Positions 29,483-34,409 of a stretch of DNA of 64,000 nucleotides are shown piece by piece. Source of the DNA: Acidithiobacillus thiooxidans ATCC 19377 (GTDB taxonomy: Bacteria > Pseudomonadota > Gammaproteobacteria > Acidithiobacillales > Acidithiobacillaceae). The translations under genes were made by a program, and so were the position numbers. The DNA lies in assembly GCF_009662475.1 (NCBI RefSeq), contig NZ_CP045571.1, positions 2,540,501 to 2,604,500 on the forward strand, given 5' to 3'. The notes under the pieces were generated by a model. It worked only from the letters and a program-made list of their open reading frames with translations. It did not search any database and was not told the origin of the DNA. Each line of letters begins with the position of its first letter. Position 1 is the first letter of the stretch.

Positions 29483-29499
29483 ATCGGGAATTCGTAAAC

Positions 29500-29513
29500 T
29501 TGACCGAAATCAA
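29500..29513. promoter_or_regulatory. FNR/DNR-type binding site upstream of the globin operon
   Basis: TTGAC, CGAA, ATCAA differs at one base from the FNR-class consensus TTGAT-N4-ATCAA. It lies about 90 bases before the globin start and just after the EmrA stop. A Crp/Fnr-family protein whose recognition helix carries the matching E-x2-S-R residues is encoded at the far end of the same cluster (33702-34409). Confidence 0.5.
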
Positions 29514-29602
29514 GGAAATTCCATTAACCAATCCTTATTCTCTAAAACGCTGGCTGTGTTACGCAGCCTATCCACCAAATACACATATAGGAGTCATCCG
29601 TA

Positions 29603-30064
29603 ATGAGCATCAATATTCAACTGATCCAGTCCAGTGGTGCAGCTGTGAAAGACCTGGGTGTTCCGGTTGCCGAGCACTTTTATAATTATATGTTTACGCA
29701 TTTTCCGGAAGTCCGGAAAATGTTTCCGGGAGACATGACCGAACAACGTATTCGGCTTTTTAATTCGGTCATTCTGATTGCGACCACTATCGACAATCTG
29801 GAAGTGTTGGTCCCCTATCTGAAAGAACTGGGCATTTCACACATCAAATATGATACGCGTCCGGAACATTATCCCATCGTCGGTAAAAGCCTGCTCAATA
29901 CCCTGAAACATTTTCTGGGCGCTGCATGGACTCAGGAAATGGCAGAATCCTGGATTGAGGCCTACAACCTCGCGTCCACGGTTTGTATTGAGGCAGCCTA
30001 TGAGGCGATGGCTCCTTCCCGTTTTGTCCCGGTCACCATCGACGACGTTCCGCCTGCTGTGTGA
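29603..30064 (+). CDS. Single-domain globin (flavohaemoglobin/Vgb type)
   Basis: A 153-residue haem globin of the class found as the N-terminal part of flavohaemoglobins and as Vitreoscilla haemoglobin. The proximal histidine is H89 in RPEHYPIVGKSLLNTL, a near-exact match to the Hmp F-helix. The distal pocket Tyr is probably Y27 in HFYNYMFTHFPEVRKMF. No reductase domain is fused, but the next gene is a flavin reductase. AGGAG lies about nine bases before the ATG. Likely role: NO dioxygenation or O2 delivery, by family. An FNR-type site stands upstream. Confidence 0.9.
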   Translation: MSINIQLIQSSGAAVKDLGVPVAEHFYNYMFTHFPEVRKMFPGDMTEQRIRLFNSVILIATTIDNLEVLVPYLKELGISHIKYDTRPEHYPIVGKSLLNTLKHFLGAAWTQEMAESWIEAYNLASTVCIEAAYEAMAPSRFVPVTIDDVPPAV

Positions 30065-30123: not shown

Positions 30124-31104
30124 ATGGAATACGAAATTTGTCTGGAGCCCTCCGGTGTCCGCTTCAAGGCGGATGAAAGCCAGAATATTGTCGAAGCAGC
30201 AAAAGCCCATCATGTGGCCATTAAACATGGATGCGCCAGCGGTTCTTGCGGAGATTGCAAGGGCACCATCCTGTCCGGAGAAAGTGAGCAGGGACCCTTC
30301 ATGCCCCTGCTTTTATTGCCCACAGAGCGCGCTGCGGGCATGGCCATTTTGTGCAAGCTTTATCCGCGCAGCAATCTGCGGCTGCAAGCTGAAGTGATTT
30401 CCGGGGACGTCTGGAATACTGAAATTGTGGGGTTGAGCAAACTGGCCTGGAATGTGCTGGAACTGCGGTTACGGCCGGAAAAACCCTATCCATACCGAAG
30501 CGGGCAATATGCACGGATGGCCGTGCCGGGACAGGAAAATCAATGGCGTTCTTACTCCATGGCCACCCCTCCACAGGACCGGGACGAGTTGGTTTTTCAT
30601 ATCCGCGAACTTCCGGGTGGTCTGTTCAGTCGCTGGCTTTTCTACCAGGCTCAATGCGGCGACGCAATCACGCTCGGACCGCCACAAGGAGACTTCGCTC
30701 TCCAGGATAATACGCGGCCCCTGCTTTGTATTGCCGCAGGAACAGGATTGGCACCCATTGAAGCCATCATTCAGGAAAGTATGCACACAGGGCAAACCCG
30801 CCCGATTCATCTTTTTTACGGCGCCAAAAAACAGCGGGATTTTTATCATCTGGAAACCCTGCAGCAATGGGCCGGACAGTATGCCCATTTCACTTTTACA
30901 CCCACCATTTCCGATGGCGAAGATACGCAGTGGAAAGGTGCCCGCCGTCTTCTGCCCACGGTGGCAGCCAACGGCCACTGGCAGGATCATGAAGTGTATT
31001 TGTGTGGCGGACCCGGCATGATAGAAGCGGCCATTGATCTCCTGCGTTCTCATGACGTGCCTCATGCGCACATACATTTTGATTCTTTTGCACCCAACGG
31101 TTAG
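30124..31104 (+). CDS. 2Fe-2S/FAD/NAD(P)H oxidoreductase (MmoC/AscD-like)
   Basis: A 326-residue electron-transfer protein. It has an N-terminal plant-type ferredoxin with ligands C37, C42, C45 (GCASGSCGDCKG) and C77 (AILCKLYP). The FAD domain follows (RSGQYARMAVP, WRSYSMATPP), then the NAD(P) domain (CIAAGTGLAPIEAII, VYLCGGPGMIEAAIDLL). This is the layout of reductases of multicomponent oxygenases. Here no oxygenase is nearby. The upstream neighbour is a globin, so it may reduce the globin haem and thereby stand in for the reductase half of a flavohaemoglobin. Confidence 0.9.
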   Translation: MEYEICLEPSGVRFKADESQNIVEAAKAHHVAIKHGCASGSCGDCKGTILSGESEQGPFMPLLLLPTERAAGMAILCKLYPRSNLRLQAEVISGDVWNTEIVGLSKLAWNVLELRLRPEKPYPYRSGQYARMAVPGQENQWRSYSMATPPQDRDELVFHIRELPGGLFSRWLFYQAQCGDAITLGPPQGDFALQDNTRPLLCIAAGTGLAPIEAIIQESMHTGQTRPIHLFYGAKKQRDFYHLETLQQWAGQYAHFTFTPTISDGEDTQWKGARRLLPTVAANGHWQDHEVYLCGGPGMIEAAIDLLRSHDVPHAHIHFDSFAPNG

Positions 31105-31124: not shown

Positions 31125-31370
31125 ATGAAAGTACAAATTCTGGTCTCGAAATGGTGCCCGGTTTGCCCGCAGGCTGAAGCAGTATGGAAACAAGCTGCGG
31201 AAAAGGTGCCGATGGAACTGCAGGTACTGGATGTGGCGGATCGCGAAGGGCGCGAAATCGTCAGCAATCTGCGCATTAAAACGGTCCCGGCCATTGTCGT
31301 GGACGGTGCCCTGAAGACAGTGGGCGCACAGCCTCTGGGCGAAGTGCTGAAAATGCTCGGCGTCCAATGA
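31125..31370 (+). CDS. Small thioredoxin/glutaredoxin-fold protein
   Basis: An 81-residue thioredoxin-fold protein with an active-site CPVC (Cys 11 and 14 in KWCPVCPQAEAVW) and the cis-proline region KTVPAIVVDG. The ATG at 31125 is preferred because GGAGGAG lies seven bases upstream; two earlier in-frame starts overlap that site. It resembles small redox proteins acting on thiols of a dedicated partner. It sits 20 bases after the reductase and before the hemerythrin-like gene. The partner is unknown. Confidence 0.85.
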   Translation: MKVQILVSKWCPVCPQAEAVWKQAAEKVPMELQVLDVADREGREIVSNLRIKTVPAIVVDGALKTVGAQPLGEVLKMLGVQ

Positions 31371-31455: not shown

Positions 31456-31914
31456 ATGACACCCATAGATCAGATCATGCAACAGGACCATGAACGCCTG
31501 GATCAACTTTTGGAGCAAAGTGCCCAGGCTGTCCGCCAAGGCGCATGGCAGGAAGCTGCGCAGTTACTGGAAGCCTTCCGCCATGGGATTGTCGATGGTC
31601 ATATGGTTGTGGAAGAAAACACCTTATTCCCTGCCTTTGAGCTGCAGGAAGGTAGCGAAGATCATCCTCTGACTGCGCTACTCCGCAAGGGGCATCAGGA
31701 TCTGCGGGTGTTTTTTGAAGAAATGGCGGAGGCCATTGCAGACCAAGACGCCGAGACCTTTGACGATCTGCTGAGTACCGTCCAAACCATTCTCAAACAA
31801 CACGATGCCAAGGAGGAAACTGAACTTTATCCCTATCTGGCTGCCGCATTGGCGGATCAGGGTGAAGCTGCGGGAAAGCGTATTCTCGACTTTGAGGCGG
31901 AGGCCAGATCATGA
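31456..31914 (+). CDS. Hemerythrin-like (HHE) di-iron protein
   Basis: A 152-residue four-helix protein with hemerythrin-type metal ligands: the His in QQDHERLDQL, HMVVEENTLFPAFE, the His in RKGHQDLRVFFEEM, and HDAKEETELYPYL. Such proteins bind O2 or NO, or help repair iron centres (for example the YtfE type). The start at 31456 has GGAGA five bases upstream. The stop overlaps the next start (ATGA), coupling it to the lipoyl-carrier gene. Its place with a globin suggests NO or O2 handling. Confidence 0.88.
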   Translation: MTPIDQIMQQDHERLDQLLEQSAQAVRQGAWQEAAQLLEAFRHGIVDGHMVVEENTLFPAFELQEGSEDHPLTALLRKGHQDLRVFFEEMAEAIADQDAETFDDLLSTVQTILKQHDAKEETELYPYLAAALADQGEAAGKRILDFEAEARS

Positions 31915-32357
31915 GCGAACATAATGGTTGTGAACTACCTGAAGACCTGTTTTATGATCTCGATTATGTCTGGGTGCGTCCGGAAGAGGACGGTACGCTG
32001 ACGATTGGCGTCACAGACCCTGCACAGACCATGTCGGGCCGCCTGCAAAAAGCCCGTATTAAAAAAGTCGGAACACATCTGGAGGCCGGACGGCATGTGG
32101 CTACGCTGGAAAGTGGCAAATGGGCGGGCGGCGTACCCGTGCCCTTTGCCGGTGAAGTCATTGCCCGCAACGAGCAATTGTTGGAAGACCCGCACCTAAT
32201 CAATATTGATCCTTACAAGGACGCCTGGATTGCCCGCGTCAAACCGGATGATCCCCAACATGCCCTGGACAACGTCAAAACCGGTAGTGAAGCTATTGAA
32301 GCACTGGAGGCCTGGATCAAACGCTATGGAGTGCAGTGTATGCGCTGTTCGGAATGA
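31911..32357 (+). CDS. GcvH-like lipoyl carrier protein
   Basis: A 148-residue protein of the glycine-cleavage H family. The lipoylation lysine is K70 in ATLESGKWAGGVPVPFAGEV, keeping the E-S-x-K spacing of GcvH but with G-K-W instead of the usual V-K-A. No other glycine-cleavage gene (P, T or L) is in the window, and the neighbours are redox-stress genes. It may therefore carry a lipoyl dithiol for another reaction, as shown elsewhere for H-protein-like carriers of sulfur oxidation. It ends in an unusual CMRCSE tail with two cysteines. Confidence 0.82.
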   Translation: MSEHNGCELPEDLFYDLDYVWVRPEEDGTLTIGVTDPAQTMSGRLQKARIKKVGTHLEAGRHVATLESGKWAGGVPVPFAGEVIARNEQLLEDPHLINIDPYKDAWIARVKPDDPQHALDNVKTGSEAIEALEAWIKRYGVQCMRCSE

Positions 32358-32360
32358 TCC

Positions 32361-33287
32361 ATGAATCAGGCCGCAAGCCGTTTTACGCTCAGCCCGCCCG
32401 CGCCCTTTCGCCTGGACCTGACCGTCTGGGCACTCCGTCGTCAGGCTCATAATCAGATAGATAGCTGGGATGGCGAAATCTACCGGCGGGCCTGGCAATA
32501 TTCAGGAAACAGGCTGGAGGTCCGGCTTTGGCAAACTCAGGCTGGCAGGACGCCACTGCTGGAAGGAGAAGTCCAGGGGAACTGCGTTGATGCATCAAGC
32601 GTTGCCTGGGTCAGCAGGCAACTTTCGTGGATGCTGAGTCTGGACCAGGATCTTCGCCCCTTCTACGCGATGGCCGCCAGCGACTTGCGGCTGGCAGCTC
32701 TGGCGGATCGCTTTCAAGGATTCAGGCCGCCGCGTTTTTCCTCTCTTTTCGAAGCGCTGAGTAATGCCATTGCCTGCCAGCAATTAAGTCTGCACGTCGG
32801 CATTCTCCTGCTCAATCGCATGGCGAGGCTGTGCAGTAACGCTCCCGAAGCAACGAACTCGTTTGTGCCTTTCCCGAACCCTGCCACCTTACTGCAGCTG
32901 GAAGCAGCCAGCCTGCGCAGCCTGGGGTTCAGCATCCAGAAGGCCAAGTTTTTGCATGGAATTGCAGAAACCGCTGCAGCAGGTCAGTTGGCGCGTGAAA
33001 ACTGGCAAGGCCTGAGCAATTCTGAAGCCGCACAGCGCCTGCATCAGTTGCGCGGTATCGGCCGTTGGTCTACAGAATATGTGTTACTGCGCGGGCTGGG
33101 GCGTCTGGACGTGTTTCCCGGTGATGATGTAGGTGCCCGCAAGGCCTTGTATCAGTGGCTGGAAGAAAAGTCTGCTCCGGACTATACGCAGGTAGCCAAA
33201 AGGTTGCAGCCTTGGCAACCCTATGCTGGCATGCTGTATTTTCTTCTGCTCTTAAACCGCCTGGAGAAGGAGGGACATATACCATGA
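32361..33287 (+). CDS. AlkA-type DNA-3-methyladenine glycosylase
   Basis: A 308-residue base-excision glycosylase of the HhH-GPD superfamily. The helix-hairpin-helix is LHQLRGIGRWSTEYVLLRGL (about residues 227-246), and the catalytic Asp follows in VFPGDDVGARKALY. LFEALSNAIACQQLSLHVG is the conserved start of the domain. The N-terminal 120 residues resemble the AlkA N-domain. It probably removes alkylated bases. It lies three bases after the lipoyl-carrier gene and overlaps the DUF488 gene, so it belongs to the same transcript. DNA alkylation can follow nitrosative stress, which would fit the operon. Confidence 0.86.
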   Translation: MNQAASRFTLSPPAPFRLDLTVWALRRQAHNQIDSWDGEIYRRAWQYSGNRLEVRLWQTQAGRTPLLEGEVQGNCVDASSVAWVSRQLSWMLSLDQDLRPFYAMAASDLRLAALADRFQGFRPPRFSSLFEALSNAIACQQLSLHVGILLLNRMARLCSNAPEATNSFVPFPNPATLLQLEAASLRSLGFSIQKAKFLHGIAETAAAGQLARENWQGLSNSEAAQRLHQLRGIGRWSTEYVLLRGLGRLDVFPGDDVGARKALYQWLEEKSAPDYTQVAKRLQPWQPYAGMLYFLLLLNRLEKEGHIP

Positions 33288-33667
33288 CATCCCATTCGCC
33301 GTTGCGACTGCATCCCCCTGAGATCATTACCTGGCGCGTCTATGAGCGCCCTCTGCCAGCAGGCTACCACGTGCTCGCTGAACGCCTCTGGCCGCGCGGG
33401 GTGCGCAAGGAGGATCTTCCCCTGGACGACTGGCCCAAGGAACTCACACCCAGCACCGCCTTGCGTCAATGGTTTGGGCATGTAGAGGATCGCTGGACCG
33501 AGTTTCGTGAGCGTTATCTGAAAGAACTTGCCGAACACCAGGAAGAAGCCTGTCGTTTACTGGATAATGCGGAAGGTCGGCCGGTCATTCTGCTGTATGC
33601 CGCCCACGATAAAATCCATAATGGTGCTGTGGTACTTCGGGAGTTTTTGCTATCACAGTCCTGCTGA
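33284..33667 (+). CDS. DUF488 (YeaO-like) protein
   Basis: A 127-residue DUF488 protein: RVYERPLPAGYHVLAERLWP followed by RGVRKEDLPLDDWPKELTPS and HVEDRWTEFRERYLKEL are the family blocks. Its function is not known. The frame is open for 43 more codons upstream, but those lie inside the glycosylase gene. The ATG at 33284 overlaps the glycosylase stop (ATGA) and matches the family start. It is the last gene of the globin operon and converges on the Crp/Fnr gene. Confidence 0.85.
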   Translation: MTSHSPLRLHPPEIITWRVYERPLPAGYHVLAERLWPRGVRKEDLPLDDWPKELTPSTALRQWFGHVEDRWTEFRERYLKELAEHQEEACRLLDNAEGRPVILLYAAHDKIHNGAVVLREFLLSQSC

Positions 33668-33701: not shown

Positions 33702-34409
33702 TTATGACGAATGACCGGCGGCCCAACACTGCAGGGCACGTGGATCGGGAATATCCAGCACGCGGCGATTGACTGTAATCAGCCCGGCTTTGCGCATACG
33801 CAATAGCAAGCGGGACAGGGTTTCCGGGGTCAAGCCCAGACGGGCAGCTACTGCTGATTTTTTGGCGGGAAGCTCCACAACAGCTGCAGCATCCAGAACC
33901 GGACACAAATCCAGCAGATAACTTACCAGACGTTGTTCTGCCGACTCGACACTGAGCTGGCGGAGCTCCTTGACCAGAAAATGTAAGCGCATACTCAGTC
34001 GTGCCAGCATCTGCCGCATCAACTGGGGCCTTTGCTCCAGAATTTCCAGAAATAAGGCGAGGGGTATTTCCAGAACCGTTGTGGAACCTTCCGCAGCAGC
34101 CGTTACTGGATAACATCCCCCCAGAAAAGCAACGGCTTCGGCAAATAGATCGTTTTCCCGAATAATTTCAACAATTTTTTCCTGACCAGTGGCGGCAGCA
34201 GCAATCAGATGAATACGACCGGAGAGGACCAGATAAAAAGCATTTGCGGTCGCCTTTTCGACAAACAGAATATCGCCTGATCCCAAATGGACTGTTTTGC
34301 TGTGCTTCAGCAAGGAATCCAGCAACGCTTCTGGCCAGGCCGAAAAAAGCGACGTTTCGCGCAGGAGTGAGGGTACATTATCCGTGATGGCTTCCATCAA
34401 AATAGGCAC
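33702..34409 (-). CDS. Crp/Fnr-family regulator (DNR/NnrR-like candidate)
   Basis: A 235-residue regulator with a cyclic-nucleotide-binding-like sensor domain (residues about 15-125, GSGDILFVEKATANAFYLVL) and a dimerisation helix. The C-terminal winged helix reads KKSAVAARLGLTPETLSRLL. The recognition helix has E-x2-S-R, the FNR pattern that reads TTGAT half-sites. The N-terminal cysteine cluster of FNR is missing, so it does not look like an Fe-S oxygen sensor. DNR-type NO sensing is possible. It is convergent with the globin operon. The first codon is GTG at 34409; an ATG four codons later is an alternative. Confidence 0.87.
   Translation of the reverse strand: MPILMEAITDNVPSLLRETSLFSAWPEALLDSLLKHSKTVHLGSGDILFVEKATANAFYLVLSGRIHLIAAAATGQEKIVEIIRENDLFAEAVAFLGGCYPVTAAAEGSTTVLEIPLALFLEILEQRPQLMRQMLARLSMRLHFLVKELRQLSVESAEQRLVSYLLDLCPVLDAAAVVELPAKKSAVAARLGLTPETLSRLLLRMRKAGLITVNRRVLDIPDPRALQCWAAGHSS

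Follow-up and report, generated by a model that had tools for sequence, protein, structure and literature searches.

A conserved box ahead of the globin genes of Acidithiobacillus is probably the operator of a DNR-type regulator encoded in the same cluster

The box TTGACCGAAATCAA that precedes a globin gene in Acidithiobacillus thiooxidans ATCC 19377 is best explained as an operator for the DNR-type activator whose gene closes the cluster, a reading that we consider likely. We analyzed a 64,000-nucleotide stretch of this genome (the window), in which the box occupies positions 29500-29513 of the forward strand. It starts 103 bp before the globin ATG at 29603, confirming the original prediction of an FNR-type TTGAC-N4-ATCAA sequence ahead of this gene. 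From sequence and conservation across globin loci, the core at 29500-29513 was extended to a DNR-type box of the form CTTGACC-GAA-ATCAAGG (29499-29515).

The genes that follow the box on the forward strand begin with a single-domain globin that resembles the haem domain of flavohaemoglobin (29603-30064). Its product matches Pfam Globin and, partially and under the cut-off of that model, PRK13289; the best match in the PDB is 1vhb, which we take to be the Vitreoscilla-type bacterial haemoglobin. Next is a 2Fe-2S/FAD/NAD reductase (30124-31104; Pfam Fer2, FAD_binding_6, and NAD_binding_1) that likely serves as the globin reductase. Further downstream are genes encoding a small thioredoxin-like protein (31125-31370; Pfam Thioredoxin_3), which has its own box where it stands outside the operon; a hemerythrin-domain protein (31456-31914; Pfam Hemerythrin); a GcvH-like lipoyl-carrier protein (31911-32357; Pfam GCV_H); an AlkA-like DNA glycosylase (32361-33287; Pfam HhH-GPD, with PRK10308 under its cut-off); and a DUF488 protein (33284-33667; Pfam DUF488-N3i). 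The GcvH-like lipoyl carrier recurs in many of the globin clusters of the genus. The gene for the Crp/Fnr regulator, with the recognition helix LGLTPETLSR, lies on the reverse strand (33702-34409), and is assigned to the DNR type by its domains, its PDB profile match, and its residues.

By itself, the short sequence of the box appears unremarkable. With at most one mismatch, the window contains seven matches, compared to 8.1 expected from shuffles. A scan of the whole genome, which the original prediction had proposed as a check on TTGAY-N4-ATCAA, went against the bare box and in favor of its extended form. In the 3.416-Mb genome, TTGAYN4ATCAA yielded 23 strand-hits, corresponding to 17 places. 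Spacings from N0 to N14 yielded 324 strand-hits genome-wide, a mean of 21.6 for each of the 15 spacings, and N4 was thus no commoner than the others. Moreover, 15 of the 17 exact places fell inside ORFs of at least 70 amino acids, some of which are doubtful or have extended starts. A reversed-pattern control (1 + 1 hits compared to 14 + 9) was discounted because its dinucleotide make-up differs from that of the box pattern. In contrast, the extended box CTTGAY-N4-RTCAAGG occurred at 32 places in 17 genomes of the genus, while the remaining spacings between N0 and N12, 12 in all, gave 65 places (mean 5.4, range 1-13), with orthologous sites tallied per genome and hence mutually non-independent. 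It is the comparison across species that makes the box convincing.

TTGAY-N4-RTCAA was found ahead of globin in all 20 Acidithiobacillus loci that include upstream DNA (L042, which has none, was left out), and the distance from the start of the box to the globin start codon is 85 to 140 bp. The gene upstream of the box differs among these 20 loci; the box is constant. Across 23 rows (21 distinct), 11 columns within or just past the box carried 2.0 bits of information, and most flanking columns carried 0.1-0.6 bits.

The spacing of the box from the promoter is also conserved. Among 20 distinct sequences downstream of the globin boxes, the best match to a -10 element at any one offset (mean 3.8 of 6) placed the center of the box at -41.5. 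None of 2,000 base shuffles, which ignore the kinship of the sequences, attained this mean at any offset, and likewise none of 2,000 reached the observed match for 10 sequences that are less than 70% identical. For the six distinct hcp promoters, -41.5 was again the best offset, narrowly (3.17 compared to 2.83), and for six boxes ahead of other genes it tied with two other offsets. In the window, the predicted -10 element is TATTCT (29536-29541, forward strand), and the predicted transcription start is at ~29548, with the box centered at 29506.5. This predicted arrangement is as for a class II activator. Since TTGACC is similar to the -35 consensus, TTGAC might instead simply serve as the -35 of a sigma-70 promoter with constitutive activity, which we regard as extremely unlikely. 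The conserved -10 element stands 30 bp past TTGACC, rather than ~17 bp, so TTGACC is not the -35 of this -10, and the ATCAA-GGA half of the box is as conserved as the TTGAC half.

Typical NO-detoxification genes follow the box across the genus. The extended form is present in 15 of the 17 genomes (G010 and G012 are without it), and 31 of its 32 places are ahead of genes that Pfam labels as globin (16), hcp (eight), DUF2249 or hemerythrin (five), or thioredoxin (two). The single miss, in G009, is inside an S-adenosylmethionine synthetase gene. All eight hcp genes, from seven genomes, have a box at -78 or -79. Both thioredoxin genes with a box are copies that moved out of the globin operon: L103 in G015, and L031, from which the G013 case was read, apparently on the same contig. 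As the named globin loci (L022-L042) and the genomes G001-G016 share species, the locus count and the genome count are not independent. We take COG4309 to be the DUF2249-type family. This COG is discussed for other bacteria in the passages of Rodionov et al. (2005) that we draw on (PMC1274295).

In the window's genome, boxes precede three copies of the globin operon and one DUF2249 gene; hcp was looked for in this genome and not found. Besides the operon described above, the other two globin-reductase copies, near-identical to each other, are at G000:C1:1433023 and 2375096 (L053 and L055), and both are preceded by a hemerythrin gene and the box CTTGACCAAAGTCAAGG. An extended box also lies ahead of thiC (G000:C1:1203412, L052), upstream of a leader resembling a thiamine riboswitch. 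This box is probably a chance match.

The regulator encoded in the cluster likely starts at a conserved Met at 34397, rather than at the GTG at 34409. Its cNMP-like sensor domain (PF00027) and Crp HTH domain (PF13545) both scored over cut-off. The prediction that its recognition helix carries the FNR-like E-x2-S-R was borne out by E196, S199, and R200 within TPETLSR. In 10 aligned sequences, the PET[LF]SR region is nearly invariant and these three residues are fully so. FNR uses four cysteines to bind a 4Fe-4S cluster. The regulator lacks an N-terminal cysteine cluster, also as predicted: it has just three cysteines, C99, C169, and C228, none of them N-terminal, and C99 is replaced by R in most orthologues.

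When the family profile was compared to the PDB, the best match was P. aeruginosa DNR (3dkw; 158.6 bits), with a "cyclic nucleotide-binding protein" second at 149 bits and the best FNR at 78.9 bits. In a single-sequence PDB search, 3fx3, named "cyclic nucleotide-binding protein," scored slightly above DNR (119.4 compared to 105.7). No match in the profile search was named HcpR; 9day_A ("Transcriptional regulator, putative"), which we suppose might be HcpR, scored 60 bits. By profile, DNR is thus the best match among characterized relatives of the regulator. The DNR/NnrR-type assignment made in the original prediction is supported by this profile match, by the resemblance of the box to CTTGATnnnnATCAAG, and by the NO-type genes that follow the boxes. 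CTTGATnnnnATCAAG is the DNR motif, and the regulator fits the accompanying residue rule, a recognition helix of the P/E-x2-S-R type (passages of PMC1274295).

A DNR-type protein could read the box and sense something other than NO through haem, for example another small ligand or the redox state, which we consider improbable. We take the haem ligands of P. aeruginosa DNR to be H14, H15, H167, and H187, and in our alignments the corresponding residues of the regulator are not His, which would fit such a sensor. Haem sensing is therefore not supported by residue conservation, and we infer the parts played by NO and haem. Because this ligand list is our own assumption and its status as family-defining is uncertain, we did not take the missing histidines to exclude membership in the DNR family. 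The targets of the box, which are NO-type genes (hcp, globin, and DUF2249), speak against a different signal, as do the axial-ligand switching described for DNR and CooA and the poor conservation of key haem residues between HcpR and DNR (passages of PMC12750200). H143 is invariant in the 10 aligned sequences, and R occupies the same place in the second paralogue. Tentatively, and with the odds against it, the protein may be an NO regulator of the DNR family that, in a cell rich in iron and acid, does without the Pseudomonas histidine ligands and relies on a cofactor other than haem or on another conserved residue (e.g., H143, dimerization helix).

By protein and family searches, the window's genome has three Crp/Fnr proteins, one of them encoded in the cluster. 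This cluster regulator and the globin are both present in 16 of the 17 genomes, and G012 (81% complete) has neither. In 14 of the 21 named loci (L022-L042), the regulator and the globin share a locus, with the regulator downstream and convergent in 12 cases and upstream and divergent in two; of the remaining seven loci, five end early, and L022 and L036 show no regulator. In G002 (100% complete) and G004 (99%), this regulator is the sole HTH_Crp_2 protein above 28 bits, a search that could miss a Crp protein with another HTH model, and the boxes are kept. The two HTH_Crp_2 hits in G004 belong to a single gene interrupted by a contig end, as the pieces share 87 identical bases. Given the conserved site, the best profile match to DNR, the co-occurrence with globin, and the two genomes in which it is the sole HTH_Crp_2 protein, the same-cluster regulator is very likely the reader of the box and an NO-type activator. 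The proposed pairing of the box with the recognition helix of this protein is likewise supported.

One alternative is that the main reader is another Fnr-like regulator (C1:1850316-1851056), with a CxxC N terminus and an STEHVSR helix, which would place the globin operon under oxygen or redox control. As E-x2-S-R is common to FNR, this protein could share the site, and a TTGAT-N4-ATCAA box, TTGATAAAAATCAA, is just past the stop codon of its gene (G000:C1:1850288; L007 and L018). However, the best-matching CxxC paralogue is missing from six of the 17 genomes (G002, G004, G005, G006, G013, and G015), in that our searches gave nothing there beyond weak cross-hits to DNR-type proteins, and all six keep the globin box. 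G005, G006, G013, and G015 contain further HTH_Crp_2 proteins; G002 and G004 have no clear regulator of this kind besides the DNR-type protein. The gene for the CxxC regulator is also far from all three globin copies in the window's genome. We therefore consider it very unlikely that this protein is the main reader. Dual control by both regulators may occur in the window's genome.

In L040 and L041, the cluster regulator is divergent from the globin gene with the box in between, which suggests autoregulation there, unlike in the species of the window, where no box was found in the 400 bp that precede the regulator gene. Among 31 regulator rows, an upstream box was present only in L040, L041, and the second-paralogue rows L072-L074. 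In G003, G007, and G013, a second DNR-like paralogue is divergent from hcp, again with the box in between. No second dnr was found in the window's genome.

In the mechanism that we propose, the cluster regulator would sense NO, and its dimer would bind CTTGAC-N4-ATCAAG, centered at -41.5. The bound dimer would recruit RNA polymerase to a promoter that has a -10 element and no good -35, and so induce a putative operon that runs from the globin through the reductase and thioredoxin genes to those for hemerythrin and the GcvH-like protein. Acting together, the induced proteins would repair damage and oxidize NO to nitrate. The two further globin operon copies of the window's genome, and its DUF2249 gene, would likewise be driven by this regulator.

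A different box, ATGAT-N4-ATCAT, is conserved 116-136 bp before the globin start in all six Nitrospirae loci that we inspected (L043-L048), probably from Leptospirillum. The DNR-type profile found no relative in these loci as fetched, and with a different box and no such relative, we rejected them as cases of the same circuit. A reader with altered specificity may recognize ATGAT-N4-ATCAT. GcvH matches in these loci are 29-37% identical, and the genes beside them are presumably glycine-cleavage genes.

The circuit has a precedent in A. ferrooxidans, for which Rodionov et al. (2005) predicted a pair of dnr paralogues: the first goes with the cgb globin operon, the second stands divergent from hcp, and a DNR site accompanies each (passages of PMC1274295). 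To judge by gene order, the globin box and its regulator form the same circuit in a related species; given the 2005 prediction for a sister species, the circuit is well supported but not new. Shared features are a dnr clustered with the cgb-COG0543 operon behind a DNR site, and a further dnr that diverges from hcp, an arrangement found here in G003, G007, and G013. The window's genome differs in that neither hcp nor a second dnr was found and in its three globin operon copies. The passages of PMC1274295 used here mention neither the class II spacing nor sites ahead of DUF2249, hemerythrin, and thioredoxin genes in this genus. Our search of the open-licence literature turned up no experiment on the circuit. 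In proteomics of A. ferrooxidans pyrite biofilms, a globin that may be the orthologue, AFE_0861, was the most increased protein (passages of PMC6450195). For extreme acidophiles used in biomining, our analysis thus describes a well-supported NO-defense regulon whose operator and promoter geometry are clear, and a DNR relative with other haem-pocket residues that is open to bench testing.

Compared to Pseudomonas DNR, the targets of the box are NO-detoxification rather than denitrification genes, and the histidines that we take to be haem ligands are not conserved in the Acidithiobacillus regulator. The two systems are alike in the PET-x-SR helix, the best profile match, and the resemblance of the extended box to CTTGATnnnnATCAAG (motif from PMC1274295). 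In the similar NssR-Cgb system of Campylobacter jejuni, defense against NO by a single-domain globin is switched on by a Crp/Fnr protein; however, NssR has the motif TTAACnnnnGTTAA and A180/Q181, compared to TTGAY-N4-RTCAA and P/E here (passages of PMC1274295). HcpR, a further Crp/Fnr protein, is similar in that it regulates hcp; its sites in several delta-proteobacteria are TTGACnnnnGTCAA (passages of PMC1274295), and it is NO- and haem-dependent in P. gingivalis (passages of PMC12750200), whereas the family profile of the Acidithiobacillus regulator matches DNR best in the PDB.
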